Virus record (IMG/VR): IMGVR_UViG_3300032214_000039
Location: 1-31,080 of that record
Origin: a virus
Strand: one strand, 5' to 3'
Length of the DNA stretch: 31,080 nt
Below the pieces are notes generated by a model that ran no database searches, was not told where the DNA came from, and saw only the letters and a list, made by a program, of their open reading frames with translations. Below, piece after piece: positions 1 to 22,234 of this stretch (the first letter of the stretch is position 1; every line of letters starts with the position of its first letter). The position numbers were made by a program, and so were the translations under genes.

Positions 1-194
1 AGGAAGTCGCAAAGTACTTCGTCGTCTCGGTCGCGACTGTGCGTACATGGCTGCGTAACGGCACCATCCCGAAACACACCTACCTCAAGGTGGGTAACAC
101 CTACAGGTTCAACCTGCCCGACGTGGCAGCGGCACTTGTCAACGCACCGAAAGAACCGGTGCAGTTGGAACTCGACCTCGGCAACGATAACTAA
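1..194 (+). CDS. Helix-turn-helix (MerR/excisionase-like) DNA-binding protein, 5'-truncated
   Basis: The reading frame is open from position 3 (gaa) and stops at TAA 192-194. About 63 residues are visible and the start lies left of the window. The segment EVAKYFVVSVATVRTWLRNG followed by IP, then YLKVGNTYRF and LPDVAAAL, has the typical layout of small excisionase/MerR-type winged helix-turn-helix proteins: a recognition helix 'SVATVRTWLRNG', a hairpin wing 'GNTYRF', and a last helix after 'LPDV'. Such proteins bind DNA as regulators or recombination directionality factors. The C-terminal tail is acidic. The stop lies 10 bases before the next start, so the two genes are probably co-transcribed. 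Whether it acts as a repressor, an excisionase or an early regulator cannot be decided from this fragment. Confidence 0.6.
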   Translation, partial: EVAKYFVVSVATVRTWLRNGTIPKHTYLKVGNTYRFNLPDVAAALVNAPKEPVQLELDLGNDN

Positions 195-204
195 GGAGAA
201 CGAC

Positions 205-1110
205 ATGAGTGAAATGACCCTTTTCGGCGGCGGCAACCCGCTGGTTAACAGCGACCTCTTCAAGTCGCTGCGTGACATGAACAAGACCCTCGCTGGTGGC
301 GGCGGTGGCGGTGGCAAGCGCATCTCGATCAAAGGCAACAAGTTCCGCCTCTTCGTTGATGGTGAGCAAGTCTCCGTGTCCAAGGACGACCACCTGAATA
401 TCGTCGTGGTCAACGTTGCTCCGGTCTCGCGTACCTACTACGAGGGCACCTATGACCCGAACAACACCTCGGCTCCGACCTGCTGGTCGGCTGACACCAA
501 GACCCCCTCGCCGGATGTGCCTGCGGATCAGAAGAAAGCCTCGCGCTGCACCGACTGCCCGATGAACGTCAAGGGCTCGGGACAGGGCGACAGCCGTGCC
601 TGCCGCTACAACCAGCGTCTGGCTATCACTCTTGAAGGCAAGCCTGACGAAGTCTACCAGCTGCAGCTCCCGGCCACGTCGCTGTTCGGTGACGGCAAGA
701 ATGGCAAGATGCCAATGCAGGCGTATGCCAAGTTCCTTGACGCGCATAACACGCCGATCATCGCGGTCATGACCAAGATGTCGCTGGATGAAAACTCGGA
801 GACCCCGAAGCTGTTCTTTAGCCCTGTGCGTCCTCTGACCGAGGAAGAACTGCACGCGGCTGTTGCGGCTAAGGACACCGAGGATGCCATCAAGGCCGTC
901 ACGCTGACCGTCTCGCAGACCGACGGCGTCAAGAAGAAGGACTCCGCGGCGGGGACCAAGAGCTACAACCCGGCCAAAGAGAAGATCATCGTCGATGACG
1001 AGGACGAGATCGAAGAGCCTAAGAAGGTAGAAGCCAAGAAGACGGCAGTGGCCGGTGCAGGTGCTAAGCCTGACCTCTCGGCTATTGTCACGGAATGGGA
1101 CGACGAGTAA
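205..1110 (+). CDS. Putative single-stranded-DNA-binding-like replication protein with Cys cluster and acidic tail
   Basis: The start is ATG 205, preceded by GGAG at 195-198 with 6-base spacing. An in-frame ATG at 136 lies inside the upstream gene and has no ribosome site, so it was rejected. The product is 301 residues. A Gly run near residues 32-38 is followed by a beta-rich central part. A Cys set (C..., CTDCP, ...C at roughly residues 94-135) could bind zinc or a metal. The last third is charged and low in complexity, ending in a very acidic tail (EWDDE). A folded core with a flexible acidic C-terminus next to the primase-helicase suggests a phage SSB or replication accessory protein. This is inference from architecture and neighbourhood, since I do not recognise a precise family. 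A plain hypothetical protein remains possible. Confidence 0.65.
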   Translation: MSEMTLFGGGNPLVNSDLFKSLRDMNKTLAGGGGGGGKRISIKGNKFRLFVDGEQVSVSKDDHLNIVVVNVAPVSRTYYEGTYDPNNTSAPTCWSADTKTPSPDVPADQKKASRCTDCPMNVKGSGQGDSRACRYNQRLAITLEGKPDEVYQLQLPATSLFGDGKNGKMPMQAYAKFLDAHNTPIIAVMTKMSLDENSETPKLFFSPVRPLTEEELHAAVAAKDTEDAIKAVTLTVSQTDGVKKKDSAAGTKSYNPAKEKIIVDDEDEIEEPKKVEAKKTAVAGAGAKPDLSAIVTEWDDE

Positions 1111-1124
1111 TCCTTAATAGGCTC

Positions 1125-1164
1125 GCCGCGACGGGGGATAAAAACAATCTCACCTCGTCGCGGC
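1125..1164 (+). promoter_or_regulatory. Long inverted repeat (hairpin) ahead of the primase-helicase gene
   Basis: GCCGCGACGGGG (1125-1136) is complementary to CCTCGTCGCGGC (1153-1164). This gives a 12-bp stem with one G-T type mismatch around a 16-base A-rich loop. It sits in the 78-base gap between two genes and ends 15 bases before the GTG alternative start and 24 bases before the ATG start. No T tract follows, so it is not a standard terminator. It could be an operator for a dimeric regulator or an RNA hairpin that controls translation or processing. Confidence 0.5.
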
Positions 1165-1188
1165 ATCCCAACAGGTAGAGTGGCGGCT

Positions 1189-4047
1189 ATGGATACAACG
1201 ACGTTCTTGCAGGATGTGCTTGGCACCGCAGGCTCCTACTGCGTTCTCGCGCTTAATGAGGGCAGACGCATCCAGAAATTCTATGACACCATCGAGCAGC
1301 TTGAGCATGCTGCGCTGAACTTCGACGAGAATGGTTTCGATGCCTACTACGCCCTCGGCACGTTCGAGGAAGCAGGCTCCCGCGAAGCCGATAACGTCAA
1401 ACAGATGCGGTCGTTCTTCATGGACCTCGACTGTGGTGTTAACCTCAAGACGGGCAAACCCAAGGAGTTCCCTGACCAGCACACTGCCATCTTGGCGCTC
1501 AAGGAGTTCGTGAAGACCACCGGGCTGCCTAAACCGTTCTTGGTCAACTCGGGCTACGGTGTGCACGTTTACTGGCCGCTGACCGCGCCCGTGGACTTCA
1601 TGGCGTGGCTCCCGGTAGCTGAGAAGCTCAAGGCGCTGGCCAAGGCGAAGGGGTTCAAGGCCGACGAGGCTGTGACCGCCGATGCCGCCCGGGTGCTGCG
1701 AGTGCCGGGGACGCATAACCACAAGGGCGACGATCCCAAGCCTGTCAGCTTTTTCGGCATTGCTGAGCCTACCCCAGTGCAGTTCTTCGACTTTGCTGCA
1801 CGGCTTGAGACCGTGGCTGGTAGTCTGCCGACTAGCCTGCCCGCTCGGCGCTACTCCCCTGCGGTGACAAACAGCGCTATGATGGATGCCCTGATCGGTA
1901 AGCGGGAAGCCTCGTTCAAAGCCATCATGCAGAAGACTATGGCTGGCAAGGGCTGCGCCCAGCTGGCCTACTGCATCGAGAACCGCGCCGATCTGGCTGA
2001 GCCTATGTGGCGCGCGGCGCTCTCTATCGCCAAGCACTGCACTGACATGGCCAAGGCCGTTAAGGCTGTCTCACAGGGTCACGCCGAATACGACGAAGAC
2101 GAGGCGATGTGGAAGGCCGACCGCATCAAGGGGCCGTATCTCTGCACGCGCTTCGAGGAGTACAACCCGGGTGGGTGCCAAGGCTGCCCCAACTGGAACA
2201 AGATCAAGTCGCCCATCGTTCTCGGCCAGCAGTTCACCGAGGCTACGCCCGAGGACAACACCCTCGTCGTAGCGGACCCAGAAGCGCCCGAAGCACCGCC
2301 GAGGGTCTATGAAATCCCGAGCTACCCGAACCCCTACTTCCGCGGCAAGGATGGCGGTGTGTTCATCCGTGTCATTGACGACGAGGGCGAGGTCAGTGAG
2401 CGGATTGTCTGGCACCACGACCTCTACGTCGTGCGCCGCCTGTATGACCCGGAGCAGGGTGAAATCATCGAGATGCGGCACCATCTGCCGAGGGATGGAG
2501 TGCGGTCGTTTGTGGTGCCGCTCTACGTCGTCACGTCGAAGGAAGAATTTCGGAAAGTCCTCGCCACCAATGGCGTCATAGCGATCAACAAGGAAGTGGA
2601 TACGATCATGAGCTTTACACAGAGCATGGTTAAAGACCTGCAGATCACTACGCAGGCAGACAACGCACATCGCCAGTTTGGCTGGCTGCCCGACTTCAAG
2701 GGCTTCGTCCTCGGGGACAAGGTGGTCTACGCAGACCGCGTCGATTTTAACGCACCGTCAGCCGCAACTCGTGGGATGATCGAGTTCTTTGAGCCGTCGG
2801 GCTCGCTCGACGTGTGGCGTGAGGCGGTCAACTTCTACAACCGCCCCGGCTTCGAGCTGCACCAGTTCATCACCTGCGTCGGTTTCGGCTCGGTGCTGAT
2901 GAAGTTCTTGCCTATCAACGCAGCGCTCCTGCACATCTGGTCGAAGGACTCCGGTTTCGGCAAAACGCATGCCCAGTATGCGGCGCTCTCGGCGTGGGGC
3001 GATCCTCGCAAGCTGCTCCTGCAAGAGCGGGACACCCATAACTCTCGTATGAACCGCGCCGATGTGATGCACAGCCTGCCCGTGTGTATGGACGAGATCA
3101 CCAACATCAAGCCGCACGACGCCTCAGACATGATCTACCAGATCACCGGGGGCCAGCAGCGCAACCGCTTGGCATCGACGGGCAACACTGAACGCTACCG
3201 CGGCGATCCTTGGAACCTGCTGTTTATAACCTCGGCAAACTGCAGCCTGATCGACAAGGTAGCCATGGCCAAGGCCATGCCGAAAGCAGAAGCACAGCGG
3301 GTGTTGGAGATCGAGACGAGCAGGCTCTTCGTCGAGAAGGCCGACAAGCGCCAGACTGACGAGTTCAGCGCCAAAATCCAGAGCAACTATGGCCACGCAG
3401 GCATCCTGTTCGTGCAGTACGTGATGGCCAACATCGCCGAAACTAAATTGCTGGTAGAGACCCTCCAGCGCAAGATTGATGAAGCCGCAGACCTTGGCCC
3501 TGAGAACCGCTTCTGGTCGGCAGCCGTCGCCACCTCCCTCGCCGCTGCGGTGATCTGTAAGCACCTCGAGCTCTTGGACTACGACATCCCCACCCTGCGC
3601 GACTACGTCATCAAGAACATCCTCAAGGCCAACAAGACGGTCAGCGCTGAGATGTCTCTCGACCCGATGGACCTTGTGACGGCCTACACCTACCAGAACT
3701 TGGGCCGTATCCTGCAGATCAAGTCCACCATCGACCGTCGCAGCAAGGGGAACGATAACGGCCTCGACGACCTCGTGGTGCCGGATCAGCAGCCTAAGAC
3801 CGCCGACATCGTCGGGCGCTACGAGACCGATCTGCACGTGCTGTATCTTCTGCCAGCGCCGTTCAAGGTCTGGCTGGCTGAGCAGCAGGTCAACTACAAC
3901 TCGGTTTTCGCGGAGCTCAAAGCCAAGTACAATGCCAAGAAGTCGAAGGTCCGGCTGACCAAAGGCACCAAGCTACAGATGCCCGTCGCCGATACCATCG
4001 AGGTGCCGATTGTTCTGGGCGACGTTAATGGCGAAGAAGGTAAATGA
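1189..4047 (+). CDS. Primase-polymerase (AEP-like) / superfamily helicase fusion, replication protein
   Basis: The product is 952 residues from ATG 1189. A GTG at 1180 would add three residues, and neither start has a strong ribosome site. Numbered from 1189, the N-terminal domain shows archaeo-eukaryotic primase motifs: FFMDLDCG with D79/D81 as metal ligands, SGYGVHVYW (residues 121-129) with the catalytic His, and a downstream Asp before RVLRVPGTHNHK (about 168-179). A Cys cluster follows (C319, C330, C333), probably a zinc knuckle. The C-terminal half carries a P-loop, DSGFGKT (K592), and a Walker B-like CMDEIT (D635/E636), as in phage DUF927/D5-type replicative helicases. The likely job is to prime and unwind phage DNA at the fork in the cytoplasm. 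It overlaps the next gene by 20 bases. Confidence 0.85.
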   Translation: MDTTTFLQDVLGTAGSYCVLALNEGRRIQKFYDTIEQLEHAALNFDENGFDAYYALGTFEEAGSREADNVKQMRSFFMDLDCGVNLKTGKPKEFPDQHTAILALKEFVKTTGLPKPFLVNSGYGVHVYWPLTAPVDFMAWLPVAEKLKALAKAKGFKADEAVTADAARVLRVPGTHNHKGDDPKPVSFFGIAEPTPVQFFDFAARLETVAGSLPTSLPARRYSPAVTNSAMMDALIGKREASFKAIMQKTMAGKGCAQLAYCIENRADLAEPMWRAALSIAKHCTDMAKAVKAVSQGHAEYDEDEAMWKADRIKGPYLCTRFEEYNPGGCQGCPNWNKIKSPIVLGQQFTEATPEDNTLVVADPEAPEAPPRVYEIPSYPNPYFRGKDGGVFIRVIDDEGEVSERIVWHHDLYVVRRLYDPEQGEIIEMRHHLPRDGVRSFVVPLYVVTSKEEFRKVLATNGVIAINKEVDTIMSFTQSMVKDLQITTQADNAHRQFGWLPDFKGFVLGDKVVYADRVDFNAPSAATRGMIEFFEPSGSLDVWREAVNFYNRPGFELHQFITCVGFGSVLMKFLPINAALLHIWSKDSGFGKTHAQYAALSAWGDPRKLLLQERDTHNSRMNRADVMHSLPVCMDEITNIKPHDASDMIYQITGGQQRNRLASTGNTERYRGDPWNLLFITSANCSLIDKVAMAKAMPKAEAQRVLEIETSRLFVEKADKRQTDEFSAKIQSNYGHAGILFVQYVMANIAETKLLVETLQRKIDEAADLGPENRFWSAAVATSLAAAVICKHLELLDYDIPTLRDYVIKNILKANKTVSAEMSLDPMDLVTAYTYQNLGRILQIKSTIDRRSKGNDNGLDDLVVPDQQPKTADIVGRYETDLHVLYLLPAPFKVWLAEQQVNYNSVFAELKAKYNAKKSKVRLTKGTKLQMPVADTIEVPIVLGDVNGEEGK

Positions 4048-4246
4048 CCTAGACCCCGACGGCGTGCGCATCATCGTGCCATGGCGAGAGCTGCATGTGG
4101 GGGGCTCACTCTTTGTCCCCTGTATCAACACCGAGGCTTGCGAACGGCAGGTTCAGGATGTGGCTCAACGGTTAGGCATCCGCCTAACATGCAGGCAGCG
4201 GATAGAGGCCCAACACTTGGGGTTGCGGATTTGGAGAACCACATGA
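4028..4246 (+). CDS. Small conserved phage protein of unknown function
   Basis: The product is 72 residues from ATG 4028, which lies inside the last codons of the primase-helicase gene in another frame. An upstream ATG at 4010 in this frame would extend the overlap and is less likely. The protein has a beta-rich start (RIIVPWREL, GGSLFVPCINT), a helix with AQRLGI, and a basic end (CRQRIEAQHLGLRIWR). This mix suggests a compact nucleic-acid-associated fold. Similar short proteins beside replication genes in aquatic phages are known to me only as hypothetical. It is the last gene of the rightward unit before the terminator. No function can be assigned. Confidence 0.6.
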   Translation: MAKKVNDLDPDGVRIIVPWRELHVGGSLFVPCINTEACERQVQDVAQRLGIRLTCRQRIEAQHLGLRIWRTT

Positions 4247-4305
4247 TATTGTGCGCCTGACAGAAGAGCTTGCCGCCCGCTCGCCTCCTGTCGTTCTCCT
4301 TACTG

Positions 4306-4332
4306 GCCCCGGCTTCGCGCCGGGGCTTTTTT
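4306..4332 (+). terminator. Rho-independent terminator of the rightward replication unit
   Basis: GCCCCGGC (4306-4313) pairs perfectly with GCCGGGGC (4319-4326) around a TTCGC loop. Six T residues follow at 4327-4332. The T run is on the plus-strand side only. It therefore ends rightward transcription and stands exactly where the two convergent units meet, since the leftward polyvalent gene stops at 4334. In the leftward direction the hairpin has no U tract, so leftward termination there would be weaker or absent. Confidence 0.92.
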
Positions 4333-4333
4333 C

Positions 4334-7300
4334 TTAGAAGAGCTGGAAGCCCTGATTATACATCGACTCCAGATCGACGAGCCCTTCGCGTACCGCAGGG
4401 CTAACCGAGACACCCTTGAGCATCTCCCCCGACGTGCGCTGATGGCTCTTGAGGGACCGCTTGAGGAACTCACCGTCGATGACTGCATCGGGGAAGCTCT
4501 GGGCTACGCCTTCGTTAAACGAGCGGATGTCCTCCAGAACTTCCTGCGCCCCGTCGATGTCACCTTCGCGCAGCGCGATGTAGTACAGCTTGGACAACCG
4601 CGAACGCTTTTCTGAGACGGCGTTGCTGATCTTAACCTTAAGCTGGTTGATGTCCTGCTGCAGGGTGGCCTTCGTCGGCGTGAAGCCGAGCATCTGGCCG
4701 AGCAGATCGCTGGACCCGAGATCGCCAGTGATGACGTCACCGCGACGGGTTTCGATGGCACCGCCCTCGGACAGATAGCGCCCGGACTTGATGAAGTTGC
4801 GGATAGCTGCGGGGACCATGTTCTCGATGCCGCGCACCATGTCGCCTTCGTCGCCAGTCATGGCCTTGTAGAACTCCGACACACCACGACCGAACTGCGT
4901 TGCAGTGGACCATGCCGGACCACCAAGATTGGCCACGAGGGTTTCTTCCGCGGACGGGTCGGTGTTGTAGCGGTTCTCACGGATCAGGAGCCCGGTCAGA
5001 CCGATACGCGACGAGATGTCGAGCCCAGAGATGTCAGACAGGAAGCCCTTGTAGAGCCCCGCGCCGAGGTAGCGGCGCGTCAGCATGTCTGCGTCTTCTT
5101 CGTCGTCATCGAGGAACGCGTTGGCCACCGTGGACACAAGCCCATAGAGCGGCACGCCTGCGATACCTGCAAGGGCGAAGGACGACAGCTGCAGCCCCAC
5201 AAGCTGATTAAAGGCCGTGCGACGATCCTCCGGCGTGAAGTCCGGGTCGTTGCTACCCAGCGTCAGCTGCTTTGCCAGCTTCATCTGTAGATAGAACATG
5301 GACAGGCCGTAGTTCTTAAACATCAGGGCTACGCGACCGATACCCTTCTGGGCCCAGCGCGGTGCAGTGGCGAGGGTGGCACCGCCACCGGTCTCAGTCG
5401 CCTGATACACAGCGCGTTCGGCGGCGCGGGTGCGCCGCTCAGCCTCGGTAAGACCACGCTCAGCCTCAGTCGGCTTGTTCCGCAGGCGGGCAAGCTCGAG
5501 GTTATAGGCCGCGACAAGAGCAACCTGCCGGTTGGCCCGTTCGACTTGGTGGAACATGGCACCGGAGACAGCGGCAAAGCGATCTCCGAAGCTCCGGGCA
5601 CGACCGACATCCTCGGCACCGATGCTATCGTAGTAGATCGAGCGGTTCAGCTGGCCGTTCTTGGATGCGACGTCAACAAGCGGTGCGAGCTCCTGCAGCA
5701 TCGGGCGAAGCTCCGGTGCAATGTCATCGCGCAGGACGTACTCGTTGTTGCTATTCAGCACGAAGTAGTTGTCGATGGACGGCATCGACCGGACCTTGGT
5801 CGTATTCTGACCTTGGAACTGTGCTGGCAGCTCGATCTCACGGCTGAGTCCGCTGTTCAGGAACAGCTTGTAGGCATTACCGATTGCAGCGGCAGACGAC
5901 CGGCTACCATAGCGCCCAGACAGATACGGGTAGAGTACGACTGGAACCGACGACAAGTTCACAAGCGCCGACGACACGTTAAGGCCGATGGTGAAGGTGA
6001 AGGCACCCCGGTTAACAGTCTGCACCATGCGCTCGAACATATCCGCAGGTGGGTTGGTAGCGAAGTTGGCCCGCGCTACGAGTTCCTCGATCACCGCAAC
6101 TTTGTTCTGGTCGCTGGAGTTTCTCGCCTGATCTTGAATGGCGTCCGCTACGGCCCTGATCTTGTTGCTGTAGGCATAGCGCACGCCCTGACGCCCGAGG
6201 CTGTAGCCCTTGACGCGGAGAGCCTCGAGCGAGTCCTCCATATAACCGCGCGTGTTCTTACGACGCTGCAGGGACTTGGCGAACGACGTTTCCGGCAAGG
6301 CGTCCACGAAGAGCCGAGTAATCTCCTGCTGGATGCTCGACGCCGTGGCTGCATCCACCCCGGTGTTAGCGAGGTTCGACCGGATGATGGACAGCGTATC
6401 ACGCACAAACAGAGAGTCCGGCGTGCGCCCCTGCCGCACCACGTCGAGCGTGGAGTAGTAGTTGAAGATCGGCTTGCCGTCGGGGCCCTTGGTTACTTCT
6501 GCCATAGCCTCGAGCTCTTTGGCTGCACGGTCACGCGCACGGGGGCTATCGTAAGCCTCCTTCACCGGCTCGGTGGTGCCGGTCTCGGGGTCAAAGGCGC
6601 TGTACTCCAGCCAGAAGTCACCCTTACGCGCCAACGGGAAGTACGGCTCGATGCGGTTCATGTCGAAGAACTTGGTGTAGATGCTCTTCTTGACCTCGGC
6701 AGCCAGCTCAGGGTTCGACGACAGAATGAAGTCGATCTTGCCCGAGAGTGCCTCACGCAAGCGCTCGTACTGCTTGCGATACAGCTGGCGCATGTTGTTG
6801 TAGAGGTCACGCCCGTCCTTGCCGATAGCGGCCCAGTCTTTCTGCAGCGTGTCGTACATACGCATCTTATCGGAGTCGGCACCGTACTTCTTGAGTGCCT
6901 TCTCACGGGTCAGCGACGGGTCAACCTGATTAACGGTGGAGCGCGTGACGATGCGGTCAAACAGCGGCTTGAGGTTGGGGTTCTTCTTCACCCATCCCTG
7001 CGCGATCTGCAAGACACCGTCTACCTCTTGGTCAGACTTGATGGCTGCGGCGTCCATCTGCTGGATGCCGTCCTGTAGATCATACGCCCCGTCGATCTTA
7101 TAGTGCGAGGCCACGTCGGCCAGAGGCTGCATGCCCATGAAGCCGAGAATGGTACGTTTCGCACCCCAAGATGCACCGGCCAGAACACCAGAGGCATCGT
7201 CACCGAACTGCTGAGCGAACTCCTTGGTGCGGCCCGGGAAGGAGCCGTCGACCTGTGCCACGCGGTTAAGGATCGTTGCGCCCTCGTCCGGCGTAGAAAT

Positions 7301-10695: not shown

Positions 10696-12606
10696 TTACG
10701 TTTTTGTGCGGACGTCAATGGCCTCGCCAGACTCCGCTTCGGCACCACCACCATACAGCTCGTTTTCGAGTCCGGCAATCTGCGCTTTGGTACGGGCGTA
10801 CTCATCAGCACTCTGCGGGAGCGGGACCCCGGTGGGGGCGAGGGAGTCAAGACGACCATACAGGGTATCAAGCATGGAGATTGTATCCTGCCGAGCGTAG
10901 CGTCCAAGTGTCGCTGCCTGATAAGCCGTGAGCCCGCCGCCACCAGCCGCTGCCTTAGCACGTGCTGCGCGAGACTGCTCGAGGGCACCGAGGAGTTCGA
11001 GACGGTCTTTGTCATACTGATCCCGTGCACCGCGCACCGCTTCTACGCCCTTGAGCCCGGCTTCGCCGAGAGCGCCGCCGAGCGTCGGCTGCGTGGACGA
11101 CATGAGGTTCAGACCGACCTGCGCCAGTGCCAGCCACTTGTCCTGCTCAGCCGCCTTCTCACGCTTCTGCAGCATGCTCATGAGCTCTTGCTCATAGGAC
11201 GACATGCCACCAGCTCCGCCAGCTCCGCCAGCTCCGCCAGCTCCGCCAGCTCCGCCAGCTCCGCCAGCTCCACCGGACGGCGCGTCGGGCTGCACTGTGG
11301 GTGTAGTTTTACCTGCCGTATCGCCTGCGGGAACGGCCCCACCCTTACCCTCTTCCTTGGCTTTCTTCGCCTCCTCCGCCATAGCCTCGGGCGTAGCGGC
11401 TTCCGCGGCAGCGCGATCTTTAAGGATTCGCTCCTGCTCCTCGGTCGTGCGACCGCCGAGACCGCCAAGCAGATCGTCAATGAAGGGACTTCTAAGCGGA
11501 TCGCCCGCGGGGTTAGCCTGCGCCTCTTCAAACGCCCGCTGCCTGCCACCCTTGGGCCGTTCCGGCGCACGTTCCGCCTGTATGGCGGCCATAATTCTAG
11601 CTGTCCGGTCGAGTTGGTCTTGGTAAGCGGCTTCGCCCGCGCCCATCGCGGCTGCGGTATTCGCCATATCCATTATGGAGGCCCCACCGACTTCTCGACC
11701 GAGTTCCTCAAACACAGGGCCACGAGCTATCGGGGTTTCTGCACGGGCTACTGGAGCTCCCATCGCGCGTTCATCGAAGCCTTCGCCGCCGGGGATACCT
11801 CTCTCAGTGCGGACACGCTCGTTCTCTGTCAACACAAGCGCACTGGGCACCTGCGAGTACGGGCCAGTAGCCGGTAGCGGGGACAGAGGCGAAGCCGGAG
11901 CTGCATCTGCGCCGGGCATAGCAGGCATAGCCGGAGCGCCAGCAATAGAGGGAAGCCCTGCCGGAGGTGCACCAATGGTTTGCGCCGAGATCGACGGCAC
12001 AGTCGGCATATCAATAGCAGCGGGAGTGGCCAGCGGGCGCGAAGCACCGAACGCGAACTGCTCTTCTTGGAACCGGCGATCCAGATCAGTCTGCGACGGG
12101 AAAGTCGCACCGTCTCCGACGGGGTCCATAGCCATCATGCGGTTACGCTCGGCGCGCTGTGCTGCACCGGCCTCGATCCGTGCGGCTTCTTCCTCACCGA
12201 GAGCATCGAGGTACTGAGAAACCGACATGCCCGCGCGGTTCGCCATAGCGATGACCGTCGGGTCGGTCTCGGCTTTACCACCGGCCTTCATCTTTTTCAC
12301 AAAACCGCCAGCGTACATAGCCTGCACGCCTGTGTTCTGCGTCATGTCAGTGCTCGGGGCCATAGCCCGGGCCATATCGGCGATGCCGCCCTGCGGGACG
12401 CCTGCGGCTGCGACAGCCTCTTGAGCTACCGTGCCACCGTCGTCCTTAGACTGTTGTACCGTGAAGTCGTCCTGCATGCGCTTGCGGCGCATGATCTCCC
12501 CAAGAACGAGGAACTGCGGGGCGTTACCCGAGGGTGCCTGCATCTCCCGCACGAGCTGGTCCTGCGAGAAGTTTTTCAGCTGGTCTTGGAGTTGGACGAT
12601 GTTCAT
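10696..12606 (-). CDS. Gly/Ala-rich virion-associated protein, probable internal virion protein
   Basis: The product is 636 residues. Its ATG (12604-12606) overlaps the stop of the upstream gene as TAATG, so translation is probably coupled. The N-terminus is helical, the middle is rich in Ala, Pro and Gly, and FVKKMKAGGK (about 102-111) matches a short motif seen in other structural genes of this unit. A pure Gly-Gly-Ala run (about 445-465) comes from a 9-bp tandem repeat. The C-terminal third (about 470-600) is strongly helical and may form a coiled coil. It lies between the repeat-rich virion protein and the polyvalent protein, the usual place for internal or ejection proteins of podophages. 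I do not recognise a named family. The stop is 11 bases before the polyvalent start. Confidence 0.7.
   Translation of the reverse strand: MNIVQLQDQLKNFSQDQLVREMQAPSGNAPQFLVLGEIMRRKRMQDDFTVQQSKDDGGTVAQEAVAAAGVPQGGIADMARAMAPSTDMTQNTGVQAMYAGGFVKKMKAGGKAETDPTVIAMANRAGMSVSQYLDALGEEEAARIEAGAAQRAERNRMMAMDPVGDGATFPSQTDLDRRFQEEQFAFGASRPLATPAAIDMPTVPSISAQTIGAPPAGLPSIAGAPAMPAMPGADAAPASPLSPLPATGPYSQVPSALVLTENERVRTERGIPGGEGFDERAMGAPVARAETPIARGPVFEELGREVGGASIMDMANTAAAMGAGEAAYQDQLDRTARIMAAIQAERAPERPKGGRQRAFEEAQANPAGDPLRSPFIDDLLGGLGGRTTEEQERILKDRAAAEAATPEAMAEEAKKAKEEGKGGAVPAGDTAGKTTPTVQPDAPSGGAGGAGGAGGAGGAGGAGGAGGMSSYEQELMSMLQKREKAAEQDKWLALAQVGLNLMSSTQPTLGGALGEAGLKGVEAVRGARDQYDKDRLELLGALEQSRAARAKAAAGGGGLTAYQAATLGRYARQDTISMLDTLYGRLDSLAPTGVPLPQSADEYARTKAQIAGLENELYGGGAEAESGEAIDVRTKT
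11211..11273 (-). repeat. 9-bp tandem repeat coding a Gly-Gly-Ala run
   Basis: The unit CAGCTCCGC (plus strand) occurs six times exactly and a seventh time with one change, with no spacer. Because the unit is three codons long, gain or loss of copies changes the length of the Gly/Ala linker without breaking the frame. Confidence 0.95.
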
Positions 12607-14630
12607 TACTGGAATGCCCTATAGAGAGACAAGCCGGAGAGTCCGGCACCGAGCGCTTGCTGGAGCGGGTTAGTGTAGACCGAGTTCGTAGCGGTGGTCG
12701 TGCTGGCGTTTGCCACCGGCAGGCCCCGAAGAATGTCCGAGTAGAACCCAAGCTGTTCTTCTGGGTAACCCTGCTGGCGCAGGAAGTCTTGGTATCCAAT
12801 ATCAAGCCCGGCTTGCGCCTCGCCCTGCTGGGCGCGACCAATAGCTTCCAGCATCTGGGCATTCTGAATTTGCGCCGCGCGGCTTTGCTCGCCCAAGTTG
12901 GCCAGCTGCCCAGCCTGCCCTGAGTAGAATCCGAGAGCGTCGAGCCCGAACTGCTGTGCGGCACGGTTTTCCCCGGCCTGCGCACCTTGGACCCGTGCCA
13001 CCTCTCCAGCCTGTGCGGCTTGGATACGTGCGGCCTCATCGAGGCTGATACCCTGTGTACGGGCAAGCTCAGCGGCTTGCGCCTGCTGCACTCGGGCAGC
13101 CTCGTCAATGCTGATGCCTTGGGTCCGTGCAAGTTCCGCTGCCTGCGCCTGTTGGACGCGAGCCTGCTCCTCTTGCGACATTCCCTGCACCCGGGCGGCT
13201 TCGCCAGCCTGTGCGGCTTGGATACGCGAAGCCTCGTCGATGCTGATGCCTTGGGTCCGAGCGAGTTCTGCTGCGCGAGCTTGTTGTACCCGCGAGGCTT
13301 CTTCGACGCCGATACCTTGGGTACGTGCAAGTTCGGCAGCGCGTGCTTGTTGCACTCGGGCAGCCTCTTCGATCCCGACGCCCTGAGTGCGAGCCAGTTC
13401 GGCAGCGCGAGCCTGCTGCACTCGTGCCATTTCTTCCTGCGACATACCTTGGACGCGGGCAGCCTCGCCAGCCTGAGCCTGCTGAATACGTGCTGCTTCC
13501 TCGACACTGATACCCTGAGTGCGGGCCAGTTCGGCGGCACGGGCCTGCTGGACACGGGCGGCTTCTTCGATACCGATACCTTGGGTCCGCGCAAGTTCTG
13601 CGGCACGAGCCTGCTGGACACGGGCAGCCTCTCCGGCAATCCCGCTCTGCACCCGGGCGGCTTCGCCAGCCTGAGCCTGCTGCTGCGCCATACGTGCCGC
13701 ACGATCCTGTTCAAACATACGCTGGGCATCGCCATACGCCGTCGAAAGCCCCTGTGCTTGGAGTGCGCCTTGGCGTTCCAGAAGATCACGCTCTGCAAGA
13801 CCCTCCTGAACCGCGGCGCGTGAGCCCCCAAAAGCGCCTGCCTGAACCGCGCGAGTGCTTCGCCCTTGCCGAGCAATATCATAATCTTCCTGCGCCCGGC
13901 GCTTTTGAACGTCCACCACATTTTGCATGTAGGGGTCCATGTAACGAGCCGCGTCGCTCCCTGCGAACTCACCCGCGGGGCCAAAACCAAATTCGCGGTA
14001 TCCCGCCTCGGAGAACTCTGAGAACGGCTGGGCTTGGGCCTCACGGAAGTCGGCGAACGGCGTAGCTTGGCCTGCTTGGAAGCCACCAAACTCGCGACCT
14101 TGTGCCTCGCGGAAATCGGCAAACGGCGTAGCCTGCCCAGCTTGGAACTCCGCAAACGGACTAACAGCAGCCTCGCGGAAATCACCAAACGGTGTGGCCT
14201 GCCCAGCTTGGAACCCACCGAACTCACGCCCCTGCGTGGCTTGGAACCCCGCGTAGGGTGCCGCCTGCCCAGCTTGGAACCCAGCAAAAGGTTGTGCTTG
14301 GCCTGCTTGGAACCCACCGTACTGCGAAAACTGATAGGGAGCCATAGAGGCTAGGCCCATAGCACCTTGCGCAGCGCCCCGTGTCATACCGGCGGCTTCG
14401 TTCAAATAGGGCGTGCCCGCCGCTGCAAGATTGCGGGTAGCCTGCTGCGAAGCACCGATATCACCAAACTGGCTCGATTGCGCGACACGGGGGGCCCCAT
14501 AGGTCTGATAGGGCCGCAAAGACTGTGCCTCGGCACGTCCGAGCATCCGCTCGAAGTATGGCTTGAACTCGTCAGGGATGTTCGTCTGCGTAATTGTCTG
14601 CTCCGTCGGAGCACTGCTTCCCTTACCCAT
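12606..14630 (-). CDS. Repeat-rich virion protein with two 11-residue-period arrays, probable internal virion protein
   Basis: The product is 674 residues. The ATG at 14630 overlaps the end of the upstream gene by 8 bases. After an N-terminal domain (1-105) come ten 11-residue units of the type GFQAGQATPFA (106-215), with Phe at two fixed places. A helical region follows (about 216-334). Then come ten 22-residue units (335-554) of the type AARVQQARAAELARTQ plus GIGIEE, each made of two 11-residue halves (xARxQ...E). The second array should form a long right-handed (hendecad) coiled coil. The C-terminal 120 residues look globular and end hydrophobic (GLSLYRAFQ). Neighbours are virion proteins. 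A long rod inside or on the particle, or an ejected fibre-like protein, fits the sequence but is not proven. Confidence 0.75.
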   Translation of the reverse strand: MGKGSSAPTEQTITQTNIPDEFKPYFERMLGRAEAQSLRPYQTYGAPRVAQSSQFGDIGASQQATRNLAAAGTPYLNEAAGMTRGAAQGAMGLASMAPYQFSQYGGFQAGQAQPFAGFQAGQAAPYAGFQATQGREFGGFQAGQATPFGDFREAAVSPFAEFQAGQATPFADFREAQGREFGGFQAGQATPFADFREAQAQPFSEFSEAGYREFGFGPAGEFAGSDAARYMDPYMQNVVDVQKRRAQEDYDIARQGRSTRAVQAGAFGGSRAAVQEGLAERDLLERQGALQAQGLSTAYGDAQRMFEQDRAARMAQQQAQAGEAARVQSGIAGEAARVQQARAAELARTQGIGIEEAARVQQARAAELARTQGISVEEAARIQQAQAGEAARVQGMSQEEMARVQQARAAELARTQGVGIEEAARVQQARAAELARTQGIGVEEASRVQQARAAELARTQGISIDEASRIQAAQAGEAARVQGMSQEEQARVQQAQAAELARTQGISIDEAARVQQAQAAELARTQGISLDEAARIQAAQAGEVARVQGAQAGENRAAQQFGLDALGFYSGQAGQLANLGEQSRAAQIQNAQMLEAIGRAQQGEAQAGLDIGYQDFLRQQGYPEEQLGFYSDILRGLPVANASTTTATNSVYTNPLQQALGAGLSGLSLYRAFQ
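12969..13628 (-). repeat. 66-bp (22-residue) tandem repeat, ten copies, coiled-coil coding
   Basis: Ten consecutive 22-residue units fill residues 335-554 without spacer. Two types occur: type A (AARVQQARAAELARTQ...) and type B (AARIQxAQAGEAARVQ...). Their order along the protein is A A B A A A B A A B, which points to duplication of blocks larger than one unit. Confidence 0.93.
13986..14315 (-). repeat. 33-bp (11-residue) tandem repeat, ten diverged copies
   Basis: Ten consecutive 11-residue units (residues 106-215) keep Phe/Tyr at positions 2 and 10. They alternate between GFQAGQATPFA-like, DFREAQxxPFA-like and xFxxxxGREFG-like versions. The aromatic spacing is not that of the coiled-coil array further along, although the 11-residue period is the same. 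Confidence 0.85.
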
Positions 14631-18329: not shown

Positions 18330-19181
18330 TCACCCGAGAAGTTTAGCCAATGTCTTAGGGCCAGCTACGCCGTCGGCGGTCAGACCGTTTTCAGCCTGCC
18401 ACTTCTTGAGCGCAGCCTCGGTACCCGGCCCGAAGTCACCGTCAGCTGTAAGTCCAAGCTTGGCCTGCATCTTCTTGACCTCGTCACCCTTCGACCCTTT
18501 GCGCAGCGTACCACCCGAGGGGGCAGCGGCAGCCGGTGCAGCGGCTGTGATCTTACCACCAAGTGCAGCCATAGCCTTAGCGTAGCGAGCCTGACGGTCA
18601 GCAAGGCCGATGTCCCCGCCGTTGATCTTCTTGGTCAGGGCAGCCACGTTGCCGGTGTCAGCGATGGCGTTCAGCTTGTTGGTGTTCCAGAACCACAGAG
18701 CCGACGCCAGCGCGCCCTCCTTGGTCTCCACCCACACAGCGGCTTCTTCTGCCGTCAGGTCATAGTCCTTGGCGAAGCGCGTATAGTTGTCACGGCCAGT
18801 GAGCTGCTTGAGGCCGCGGCCACGGAAGCGCCAGCCGTCACCGGGATGGACGTTGCCCAGCTTCGAGGTGCGGAACTCATCCATGTAGACGTAGTTGGCG
18901 ATCTTCTCCGGGTTGCGGGCGTATTCGGCAGCGTTGCGCTTGCCGGGGCCAAAGTAGCGCGGGAAGACCTTGTTCAGCGTTTCCTCACGATAGTTGAGGT
19001 TCTCGCTCATGGCGTTGAAGTCCATCGACTCGTGAGCGCACTGCGAGATAAACCCGGCGATGCGCTGGTCAGTCGTGATGTCGTACTTCGGCAGTGCTTT
19101 GTTCAGCTCCTCGCACCAAGCCTCGACCTCCTTATTGGTAGGGATCATGGCACGCAGCTGGTCTACGGTAATCAGGCTCAT
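18330..19181 (-). CDS. Endolysin: GH19-type glycoside hydrolase with C-terminal peptidoglycan-binding domain
   Basis: The product is 283 residues from ATG 19181, with a TAGGAG ribosome site that includes the stop of the nuclease gene. Residues 1-205 are a GH19 lysozyme/chitinase-like catalytic domain: FISQCAHES with catalytic E51, the second acidic residue E60 in MSENLNY, and FRGRGLKQLTGRDNY (119-133). After an Ala/Pro linker (211-224), residues 225-283 form a PG_binding_1 domain (LRKGSKGDEVKKMQAKLG, GDFGPGTEAALKKWQ). It cuts the glycan strands of the host wall at lysis. No signal peptide is seen, so a holin or another export route among the small membrane genes just upstream is expected. Confidence 0.92.
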   Translation of the reverse strand: MSLITVDQLRAMIPTNKEVEAWCEELNKALPKYDITTDQRIAGFISQCAHESMDFNAMSENLNYREETLNKVFPRYFGPGKRNAAEYARNPEKIANYVYMDEFRTSKLGNVHPGDGWRFRGRGLKQLTGRDNYTRFAKDYDLTAEEAAVWVETKEGALASALWFWNTNKLNAIADTGNVAALTKKINGGDIGLADRQARYAKAMAALGGKITAAAPAAAAPSGGTLRKGSKGDEVKKMQAKLGLTADGDFGPGTEAALKKWQAENGLTADGVAGPKTLAKLLG

Positions 19182-19191
19182 TTAGGTTCTC

Positions 19192-19599
19192 CTATTCGCA
19201 CCAAGATTGCTTGGCATCACCTTTGTAGTGCCGGGCCAGCCCGGCTGAGACGAGACTTTCCGCGAGGCTCTGGTGGTCCAGATAGACCTCGCCCAGCACA
19301 CGGCCACCATACTTGTCCCACTTGAGGATTTTGACATCGACCTCAAGAGCGTTGGCCACAGCGTTCTTGGTGAACGCGCTGGCTTTCTTTGCTAGGGCAG
19401 CCTCGGCATCGCACTGGGCGCGCGGTGCCTTCTCGGGCGTATCTATACCCATCACCCGGATCGAGAGCTTGGGCGGGAGGGGCGACGGGAGAAAATCCAC
19501 CGCAATCTCCACCGTATCGCCGTCGATGACCCTAGTGATTTCGTAGGGCGTAGAAAACGCAGGGGTTGCTGACAGGAGCAGGGCAACGAGCCACCTCAT
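19192..19599 (-). CDS. Secreted staphylococcal-nuclease-like (SNase/thermonuclease) protein
   Basis: The product is 135 residues from ATG 19599, which overlaps the previous stop as ATGA. Residues 1-16 (MRWLVALLLSATPAFS) are a signal peptide. The SNase fold follows: VIDGDTVEI with metal ligands D26/D28, RVMGIDTPE with R48, D53 and E56, and GGRVLGEV with R100. These match Arg35, Asp40, Glu43 and Arg87 of the staphylococcal enzyme, so it should be an active Ca2+-dependent nuclease outside the cytoplasm. The gene ends in TAG, which is also the start of the endolysin's ribosome site. A secreted nuclease in the lysis region could reduce viscosity on lysis or destroy DNA in the periplasm; its role is inferred. 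Confidence 0.88.
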   Translation of the reverse strand: MRWLVALLLSATPAFSTPYEITRVIDGDTVEIAVDFLPSPLPPKLSIRVMGIDTPEKAPRAQCDAEAALAKKASAFTKNAVANALEVDVKILKWDKYGGRVLGEVYLDHQSLAESLVSAGLARHYKGDAKQSWCE

Positions 19600-19823
19600 T
19601 TCTTGGGTCTCTTGATCGGCACCTTCTTGGTGACGGCGTCCAGCACAGCTTCCTGCGCCATGTCCTTACCCATCCCGCCGAGGAGGTCACCGACGTTGCC
19701 CGTGGCCGCAACCTTGATAGCGGTTTCCACCGGGTCAGGCAGGTTCACCTTATCCAGCACTGCGTCTACGGCCTTCTCTTTGAGCTTGCGGCCAACAAGC
19801 ATCCCAACGATGCGTCCGATCAT
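19596..19823 (-). CDS. Small unknown protein of the lysis region
   Basis: The product is 75 residues. Both ends show ATGA overlaps, at 19820-19823 with the gene before it and at 19596-19599 with the nuclease gene. It is mostly helical and amphipathic (GRKLKEKAVDAVLDKVN, MAQEAVLDAVTKKV) with a basic end (PIKRPKK). It has no signal peptide and no clear membrane helix, although the first 12 residues are hydrophobic. Similar short proteins occur beside endolysins in aquatic phages without known function. It could bind the membrane surface. No function is claimed. Confidence 0.65.
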   Translation of the reverse strand: MIGRIVGMLVGRKLKEKAVDAVLDKVNLPDPVETAIKVAATGNVGDLLGGMGKDMAQEAVLDAVTKKVPIKRPKK

Positions 19824-19966
19824 TCGGTGTACTCCTGTGTCGGTGGCTCATCGTTGCCACCTTTGTTACGGTTGTTTCCTGCGGCCATGACGCCGCCGAG
19901 AGCGCCCACGATGAACGAGGCGATGGGGGTCAGCAGCTCGAAGAACTTGCGGTCGTTCTCGCTGGA
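19820..19966 (-). pseudogene. Downstream half of the amber-interrupted membrane protein gene
   Basis: Directly after the TAG at 19969-19967, the same frame stays open for 48 codons to TGA (19820-19822). That stop overlaps the next ATG as ATGA, like every functional gene around it. It reads SSENDRKFFELLTPIASFIV, then GALGGVMAAGNN and a hydrophilic tail. This contains one hydrophobic helix (about 20 residues). It has no ribosome site and no early ATG; only a GTG (19907-19909) and an ATG (19886-19888) lie inside or after the helix. It therefore looks like the second half of one protein and not a separate gene. It would be made only by readthrough, amber suppression, or in phages without this mutation. 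Confidence 0.7.
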
Positions 19967-20101
19967 CTAGCCGAGAGGCTGGGTCACGAAGACGAGGCTG
20001 TATAGGATGGTGAAGATGGTACCAGCCAAGATCACCACCAAGGCGCAGCCGATGAAATACCGCAGCTTGGCTTCCATCATTTCTGGATCGTTCTTGCTCA
20101 T
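19967..20101 (-). CDS. Small membrane protein (holin-like), truncated by an in-frame amber codon
   Basis: The ATG at 20099-20101 overlaps the preceding stop as ATGA. The 44-residue product has a charged start (MSKNDPEMMEAKLRY) and one strong transmembrane helix (FIGCALVVILAGTIFTILYS), ending VFVTQPLG before TAG. The frame continues after the TAG with a second helix (see 19820-19966). From memory, phage proteins of this type run without a break through 'TQPLG-x-S..ND..FF.LLTPIA', so the TAG probably replaces CAG (Gln) by one base change. With one or two helices and its place among lysis genes it is a holin candidate. That role is not shown by sequence alone. Confidence 0.65.
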   Translation of the reverse strand: MSKNDPEMMEAKLRYFIGCALVVILAGTIFTILYSLVFVTQPLG

Positions 20102-20289
20102 TGCGAATCTCCTGTCAGGTCGGTGGCGCACATGCCAGTACGCAGGCAAATCGGGGGCGTGCATTCAAGAGCAGCCCAGTTCTCGGGGTCTTGGCAGGGG
20201 TAGCGGTAGAAGCCGTCCCCGCTGACCCAGAAGATCGCGGCGACGGCGGCCAGAAACGCCACCCAGATCAAGGCTTCCATCTTCATCAT
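20098..20289 (-). CDS. Small single-helix membrane protein with conserved Cys residues
   Basis: The start is taken at 20289 because this ATG overlaps the preceding stop as ATGA. An in-frame ATG at 20328 would run 39 bases further back into the upstream gene. The 63-residue product has a transmembrane helix at about residues 5-22 (EALIWVAFLAAVAAIFWV). A short extracytoplasmic part contains YPCQDPENW, ECTPPIC and GMC, four Cys that could form two disulfides in the periplasm. The 'YPCQDPENW' block is familiar from hypothetical proteins of aquatic phages. A role in lysis (for example spanin-like) is possible but unproven. Confidence 0.7.
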   Translation of the reverse strand: MMKMEALIWVAFLAAVAAIFWVSGDGFYRYPCQDPENWAALECTPPICLRTGMCATDLTGDSQ

Positions 20290-20717
20290 TGCATCGGGTT
20301 CCTTATCAGGTCGTCCATAGCCTTCCACAGGTCTTCGATCTCAGCGTCGTACTTCTCCAGCTTGCCAGCGAGGCCGCTGCTGACGCTGTCTGACTTTTCG
20401 ACCATCGACCGAAGGTCCATCAACTCTTTCTGCTGCTCAAGGATCGTCCCCATCTGGGTCGAGATTGCCGACAGCTTCGGTGCAAGCCCGCGCACGTCGT
20501 TGTCTTGGATCGCTTGCTCCAGAGTTTGCACCCGGCTCTCAACGCCCAAGACGCCATCCACGCTCTCCTCAACGGCCCAGAAGCGGTTGACTGTATCGTA
20601 CCCGACATAGATGGTGCCGCTGATACCAGACAGGGCAGGCAGAGCGGCGGCAAGCCACCATCCCTTTACGTCAAAGCCAGCGATCCGCAGGCCGTTGGTT
20701 TCAGCTTCCTCGCTCAC
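20286..20717 (-). CDS. Membrane-anchored coiled-coil protein of the lysis region
   Basis: The start is a GTG (20715-20717) that overlaps the previous stop as GTGA. The 143-residue product has an N-terminal hydrophobic segment (about 19-40, WWLAAALPALSGISGTIYVG). A long charged helical region follows (about 48-138, with VESRVQTLEQAIQ and LEQQKELMDLRSMVEK), likely a coiled coil. This is the general build of membrane-anchored inner-membrane spanins and of phage proteins that oligomerise at the envelope. It has no Cys. The product may be a spanin-type or holin-associated protein. The family is not recognised. Confidence 0.68.
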   Translation of the reverse strand: MSEEAETNGLRIAGFDVKGWWLAAALPALSGISGTIYVGYDTVNRFWAVEESVDGVLGVESRVQTLEQAIQDNDVRGLAPKLSAISTQMGTILEQQKELMDLRSMVEKSDSVSSGLAGKLEKYDAEIEDLWKAMDDLIRNPMQ

Positions 20718-21463
20718 GAACCATACCCGGCAGCGTAGACATCCTCAACCGACACAGTGCTGGCCTGTAGCAGCCCTTGCAGGCCGATGCCGAAGGCGTT
20801 GGCGGCAGAGATGTTCATGAGGTCAGCCGTGGCGCTGTAGGCCACCGTTGCGCCGTAGAGGCTGGTGCCGCTGTTGGAGGCGTAGGCATCGACAGTCCCA
20901 GTCATGGTCGAGTTGCGAGACGCGGCCAAGAAGGCACCAGCATCGCGGGCGTATGACTGCACAGCGCCGAGAGCGTTGTTGTAGTTGTTCACGTCAGCCG
21001 CCGTGATGGTCATGTCGTTGCTGGACAGGACGGCCTGCACGGCAAGCTGCTCATTGACCGTGTCGGCGTTGGCAGCCATGTTGGCGACGGCCTGCACCTC
21101 GGCTAGAACCGCAGTCGCGGCAACGAGGTTATCGACAGCCGTATCGAGATTGACCATTGTTGCGGCGTATTGATCCTGAAACAACATCTCGGCGTTGTAG
21201 TACGTCGCGTCGATCACCCCCTGAACGTCAGCGTTGTAATCCAGCCGCATCTGCTCAGTGATGGTTGCCGTCTGCATGACGCCCGGTGCGAGGATGTCGC
21301 CGTTGCTTGCGCTGTAGGTCGCCCCGGCAGTCAGGCTTTGGGCGGCGGAAAGCTGGTTAAGGATTGTCTGTGCCGACCCCTGTAGATCGGTCATCGTCGG
21401 ATCGGCGTGAGCGGCGGAAGCGCTCAGACAAAGTAGGGCCACTGTTTTCTTGAGGCAGGACAT
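20714..21463 (-). CDS. Secreted hypothetical protein
   Basis: The product is 249 residues with a signal peptide (MSCLKKTVALLCLSASAAHA). The mature part is Ala/Thr/Asn-rich, helical and acidic (ITEQMRLDYNADVQGVID, AVDNLVAATAVLAEVQ), and ends in a Gly/Tyr-rich tail. It has no Cys after the signal peptide. The start lies 107 bases inside the upstream gene (21357-22070). The signal peptide makes this start convincing, so the overlap is real unless the upstream gene is wrongly extended. Its function is unknown. An exported protein in a phage lysis region could act in the periplasm or in superinfection exclusion. Confidence 0.68.
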   Translation of the reverse strand: MSCLKKTVALLCLSASAAHADPTMTDLQGSAQTILNQLSAAQSLTAGATYSASNGDILAPGVMQTATITEQMRLDYNADVQGVIDATYYNAEMLFQDQYAATMVNLDTAVDNLVAATAVLAEVQAVANMAANADTVNEQLAVQAVLSSNDMTITAADVNNYNNALGAVQSYARDAGAFLAASRNSTMTGTVDAYASNSGTSLYGATVAYSATADLMNISAANAFGIGLQGLLQASTVSVEDVYAAGYGS

Positions 21464-22070
21464 CCGGCAACTCCTCGTTCATGAGTAGGAAGGCGTCCCA
21501 GAACGCCTGATCTTCGGCGTATCCTATCACATAACTATAGGGGTCGTCACGCATTGCGAGATACCCTTCCCGACCGACCAGCAACTTGCCCGTGGCGATG
21601 GAGTAGATCGGGCAGGGCGTCGATGCCAAAGCCATCGCTTTGAAGATGTCAGGGCTGTCGCACATGACCGAGATGCCGCTGACCTGTAGGCCGAGACCAC
21701 CAGCTTCCTGCGGGGTGCCTAAGAGGCGGGCATCCTTGCGGCGGTTGCACTCAGGGTCTTGTTCCATCTTGCCCTCGGCTCTGCCGAAGATGCTAACTTG
21801 GAAGGCCTGCTGGTAGGGGATGAGGCAGCTATCGTTGCCACCGCCACCCATGACTGTCGGCGCTGCTGCTGTCGGCACGGGCGTTGAGAACGGCGCGGAC
21901 CCGGCACCATTGTAGTTCCTCGTCTCGGTGGTGGAGACGTTGTTGCTGTCGATGGTGGAGTTGGTGTTGCCGGAGTTGGTGTTCAGATCGCCCGTGACTT
22001 GAGCGTTGGCCGTGGCTGTCAGTAGACAGAGCAGAGCGCACCCATAACGTCCCGCGTGTCGCCAGAGCAT
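21357..22070 (-). CDS. Secreted Cys-containing hypothetical protein
   Basis: The start is taken at ATG 22070, because it gives a clean signal peptide (LWRHAGRYGCALLCLLTATA, then NAQ). A longer frame to 22139 would only add basic residues inside the upstream lipoprotein gene. The 237-residue product has an Asn/Thr-rich mature start (GDLNTNSGNTNSTID), a Pro/Ala stretch, GGGGNDSCLIPYQ, then a folded part with several Cys (DPECNRRKDARLL, GISVMCDSPDIFKAMALAS, TPCPIYSI) and a basic/acidic end. The Cys pattern suits disulfides in the periplasm. It overlaps the lipoprotein gene before it by 52 bases and the secreted gene after it by 107 bases. Its function is unknown. Confidence 0.65.
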   Translation of the reverse strand: MLWRHAGRYGCALLCLLTATANAQVTGDLNTNSGNTNSTIDSNNVSTTETRNYNGAGSAPFSTPVPTAAAPTVMGGGGNDSCLIPYQQAFQVSIFGRAEGKMEQDPECNRRKDARLLGTPQEAGGLGLQVSGISVMCDSPDIFKAMALASTPCPIYSIATGKLLVGREGYLAMRDDPYSYVIGYAEDQAFWDAFLLMNEELPDVLPQENSGPTLSERFRRSRRSDDDRSTGVGTDNP

Positions 22071-22234
22071 AGCAGTTCGTTGGCCGCGTCTCCGTGCGCC
22101 ATGTAGTAAAGCGTCTCCGCGTTCTGTCTGATCTCGCACTGGCGGTCACCTTTCGGGCAGGCCGTCGTGTAGGCCACGGACGATACAGTAACAGGGCCGC
22201 ATCCAGCGACCAAGAGGACGAGTAGCAGCCTCAT
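22019..22234 (-). CDS. Small lipoprotein with several Cys
   Basis: The product is 71 residues. The ATG (22232-22234) overlaps the previous stop as ATGA. MRLLLVLLVAGCGP is a lipoprotein signal peptide with the lipobox VAGC, cleaved before C12. The mature part has four more Cys and the helix RQNAETLYYMAHGDAANELL followed by RDVMGALC. Small lipoproteins next to membrane-anchored coiled-coil proteins in lysis regions can be outer-membrane spanins. Here the preceding gene (22231-22461) would supply the inner-membrane partner. However, the protein is not Pro-rich like Rz1, so this remains a proposal. Confidence 0.72.
   Translation of the reverse strand: MRLLLVLLVAGCGPVTVSSVAYTTACPKGDRQCEIRQNAETLYYMAHGDAANELLCSGDTRDVMGALCSVY

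Follow-up and report, generated by a model that had tools for sequence, protein, structure and literature searches.

A private in-frame TAG in the conserved gene of a two-helix membrane protein from an environmental tailed phage, very probably a recent nonsense substitution, either real or a consensus error

The question raised by this locus is how to explain an in-frame amber codon that splits the gene for a small two-helix membrane protein in an environmental tailed phage (IMG/VR record IMGVR_UViG_3300032214_000039, positions 1 to 31,080; this whole stretch of 31,080 nucleotides is called the window below). On the minus strand, the frame opened by ATG 20101 reads 44 codons (MSKND...VFVTQPLG), meets TAG at 19969-19967, and then continues for 48 sense codons up to TGA 19822-19820, which forms an ATGA with the start codon of the next gene, ATG 19823. 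This interrupted frame of 20101-19820 with its ATGA overlap, pointed out in an initial annotation, has been confirmed from the sequence as real. The view that the second half has no start of its own also holds: beyond the TAG, GTG does not occur before codon 65 or ATG before codon 72, and both of these codons are within the second helix, so that the second half is not expressible as a complete helix by itself. The features concerned are listed below.

19820..20101, minus strand: gene for a two-helix membrane protein of PHROG 25359 (the focal gene); with readthrough it would have 93 codons and a TGA, and the TAG breaks it at codon 45
19969-19967, minus strand: in-frame TAG, codon 45 of the focal gene; GAG, GAA, GAC or GAT in 191 of 191 close loci
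19596..19823, minus strand: downstream ORF of 75 aa, which begins in the ATGA that it shares with the focal TGA; relatives have it at full length
20098..20286, minus strand: upstream ORF of 62 aa, intact, with a hydrophobic stretch at the N-terminus; it shares an ATGA with the focal start
20286..20717, minus strand: intact ORF of 143 aa, likewise with a hydrophobic stretch at the N-terminus
19192..19599, minus strand: SNase-family nuclease; its TAG terminator is common to many relatives
18330..19181, minus strand: endolysin/chitinase-like protein with a C-terminal peptidoglycan-binding domain

The continuous frame is better than a chance one, because in a protein search of IMG/VR the read-through protein aligned over its full length to relatives, at identities of up to 99%. 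It belongs to PHROG 25359, a family of unknown function (E 1.1e-14, residues 3-86 against positions 6-88 of the 94-position profile); the match covers nearly the full profile, whereas the copy in the window is broken at codon 45. No Pfam family matched the focal protein. The structure predicted for its closest relative (L011), in which the gene is intact, has a helix at 6-39, a loop and a helix at 46-77, with moderate confidence (mean pLDDT about 70, pTM 0.36), and codon 45 corresponds to the last residue of the loop. The gene was intact in all of the approximately 200 close relatives examined, in agreement with the earlier expectation that it normally encodes one continuous two-helix protein.

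The residue replaced by the stop was examined in relatives collected by two routes: an IMG/VR search with the read-through protein, from which 80 loci were kept of 165 confirmed, and an IMG/VR pattern scan that required an acidic codon there, which gave at least 120 stretches. Codon 45 was GAG in 110, GAA in 63, GAC in 16 and GAT in 2 of the 191 loci aligned across the site, which represent about 120 distinct gene sequences with some contigs present twice; a stop was found at no position of the gene in any of these 191. A wider alignment-based scan, partly overlapping the first set, gave 84 loci (80 kept of 592 confirmed, plus 4 from bacterial genome assemblies), again with no stop inside the gene. 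In more distant members the site is occupied by Ala, Gly, Val, Asn or Leu and reading continues through the second helix; the exceptions were a few genome-assembly matches that were cut at contig ends or ended early. Two pattern scans of IMG/VR for a stop within this motif, one with TAA/TAG and one with TGA, returned one match each, both being chance matches in unrelated frames, and two annotated phage records covering most of the protein are both intact. No homologue aligned across the TAG ends at that position. Judged from these alignments, the TAG is private to this contig among the searched loci, although the window's own or very near records may fall outside the searches. The initial annotation assumed a single-base change from CAG; the single-base change stands, while Gln as the ancestral residue does not, the close relatives all having GAN (Glu/Asp) and never Gln. 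The minimal change in the aligned codons is GAG to TAG, a single G-to-T substitution by which Glu45 would be turned into a stop.

Comparison with L011 showed 5 synonymous differences before the stop and 12 after it (17 in total), with no missense difference in either half, and elsewhere in the region all genes are intact and, compared with relatives, of full length. In a comparison with the 15 nearest equal-length relatives, the window alone carries the stop and 5 synonymous changes; 3 of these 5 fall after the stop, where neutrality would add approximately 8 missense changes (N/S 2.75). We infer from the absence of missense changes that the substitution is recent, and if the stop abolishes function it must have arisen within about the last third of the private branch, an estimate made from small numbers. 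Readthrough that maintained the whole protein would leave a pattern equally free of missense changes, so that this pattern does not alone exclude readthrough.

From the intact gene in every relative and from the 17 synonymous and 0 missense differences, the recent nonsense mutation that was among the options first proposed gains support: very probably we are dealing with a private and very recent nonsense substitution, real or arising as a consensus error, in a small conserved membrane-protein gene. A controlled or host-assisted amber readthrough, which would give one-helix and two-helix forms in the manner of a holin/antiholin pair, is very unlikely. The stop does lie where the loop that joins the two predicted helices ends, and the lack of missense changes after it would suit such a system; on the other side, the TAG is found in no relative, neither in the 191 close and 84 wider-scan loci nor in the motif scans, the focal protein is not known to be a holin, and a literature search showed no precedent of readthrough in holins among the papers it listed. 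Programmed readthrough typically shows a stop that relatives share, ahead of a conserved frame, and a stimulating RNA structure, and this stop has neither; the fold of the 90 bases from the stop onward is unremarkable (MFE z-score -0.45). Controlled readthrough, as earlier suggested, thus has no positive support. Host amber suppression fares no better, because relatives use TAG to terminate genes, no second gene is disrupted, and the search for suppressor tRNA genes that had been recommended yielded no tRNA gene from the window and no suppressor from 20 related loci, a single tRNA-Ala being found in one relative. It is extremely unlikely that the TAG is real and that this one lineage obtains the one-helix form from termination and the two-helix form from readthrough of the amber codon in a host that suppresses it, thereby tuning membrane damage.

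That this phage uses a reassigned code, with TAG standing for an amino acid, has a vanishingly small probability. Phages with such a code would carry TAG inside many genes, avoid it at gene ends and have a suppressor tRNA. TAG is indeed rare as a terminator in the window, the nuclease being the only other confidently called gene that ends in it, as had been noticed from the start. The same nuclease, however, ends in TAG in most relatives (44 of 60 distinct 3' ends, as well as in the window), TAG also closes the focal gene of 5 relatives, and the focal gene is the only confident gene of the window with an in-frame stop. The residue at the site in close relatives is Glu or Asp. Reassignment was therefore rejected on the basis of the single in-frame TAG, the TAG terminators in relatives and the lack of a suppressor tRNA in the window and the 20 loci; TAG is an ordinary stop in this lineage.

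The preferred reading, a private nonsense substitution, leaves two sources for the change, a real mutation and a consensus error, which are about equally probable and which sequence alone does not separate. An assembly or consensus error, or a minor variant promoted to the consensus while the virus population has the intact gene, is given a probability slightly under one half. The stop occurs in one contig only, as a single-base change in an otherwise perfectly conserved protein, with no further sign of gene decay; in addition, G-to-T is a common artefact of oxidative damage. The window contains no other broken gene, which indicates a contig otherwise of good quality and speaks against an error. 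A real nonsense allele that the sampled virus either tolerates for the present or is in the course of losing has an even chance and draws on the same sequence evidence as the nonsense substitution in general. In-frame stops under purifying selection, without pseudogene decay, have been reported to be widespread in bacterial genes (PMC7918605), and a stop of such kind does not alone show a pseudogene. Against a real allele, the protein is strongly constrained in relatives and its loss should usually be costly. If the mutation is real, the product would consist of the first helix and the FVTQPLG loop without the second helix, and the next ORF, which overlaps the gene, might be translated less. 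The stop itself matters little, being ordinary either way: in one copy, a widespread phage gene is broken or has been misread.

Holins, small proteins with two or three membrane helices, open holes in the membrane and trigger lysis. Two-helix holins, including dual-form holin/antiholin pairs, are small proteins with two hydrophobic helices, encoded a few genes from the endolysin. The focal protein resembles them in its size, its predicted helices and the endolysin gene three genes downstream, and differs from them in having neither a match to a holin family nor evidence for two forms. No sequence match to a curated holin family was found, the PHROG without assigned function being the sole family match. 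A lysis role is plausible by position only, and the name holin is not established because several membrane-protein candidates lie nearby. The loop motif FVTQP-G at residues 38-44 is invariant among 20 diverse members, in which the helices vary, and this suggests a specific role for the loop. An ORF at 3013-3279 of MW202675.1 (Caudoviricetes sp., L207) is 88% identical to the focal protein and is placed like the focal gene, with an SNase-like nuclease and a chitinase/endolysin gene downstream of it, but it has no internal stop and its C-terminal tail is shorter. This intact relative has no CDS annotation in the deposited genome. WJZ48432.1 of Actinomycetia phage DSL-LC01 is 45% identical over residues 6-85 with the same layout of two hydrophobic stretches, but differs in its gene surroundings, in the absence of a stop and in having Val at the site. 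A useful by-product of this analysis is a widespread and strongly conserved two-helix phage family with a nearly invariant FVTQP loop motif, which has been left unannotated in at least one deposited genome.

Several other observations were made in the window. The minus-strand ORFs at 20714-21463 (249 aa) and 21357-22139 (260 aa) overlap by approximately 107 bases in different frames. A frameshift error as the cause was rejected, both ORFs being of full length in about 80 relatives; the overlap looks real in these alignments, with starts that are approximate. At the left end (1-4334) there is an apparent strand switch, with long plus-strand ORFs, including a 955-aa frame at 1180-4047, and the minus strand in use from 4334 on. 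The 674-aa gene at 12606-14630 gave several overlapping partial matches to relatives at 12985-13682, which suggests internal repeats.
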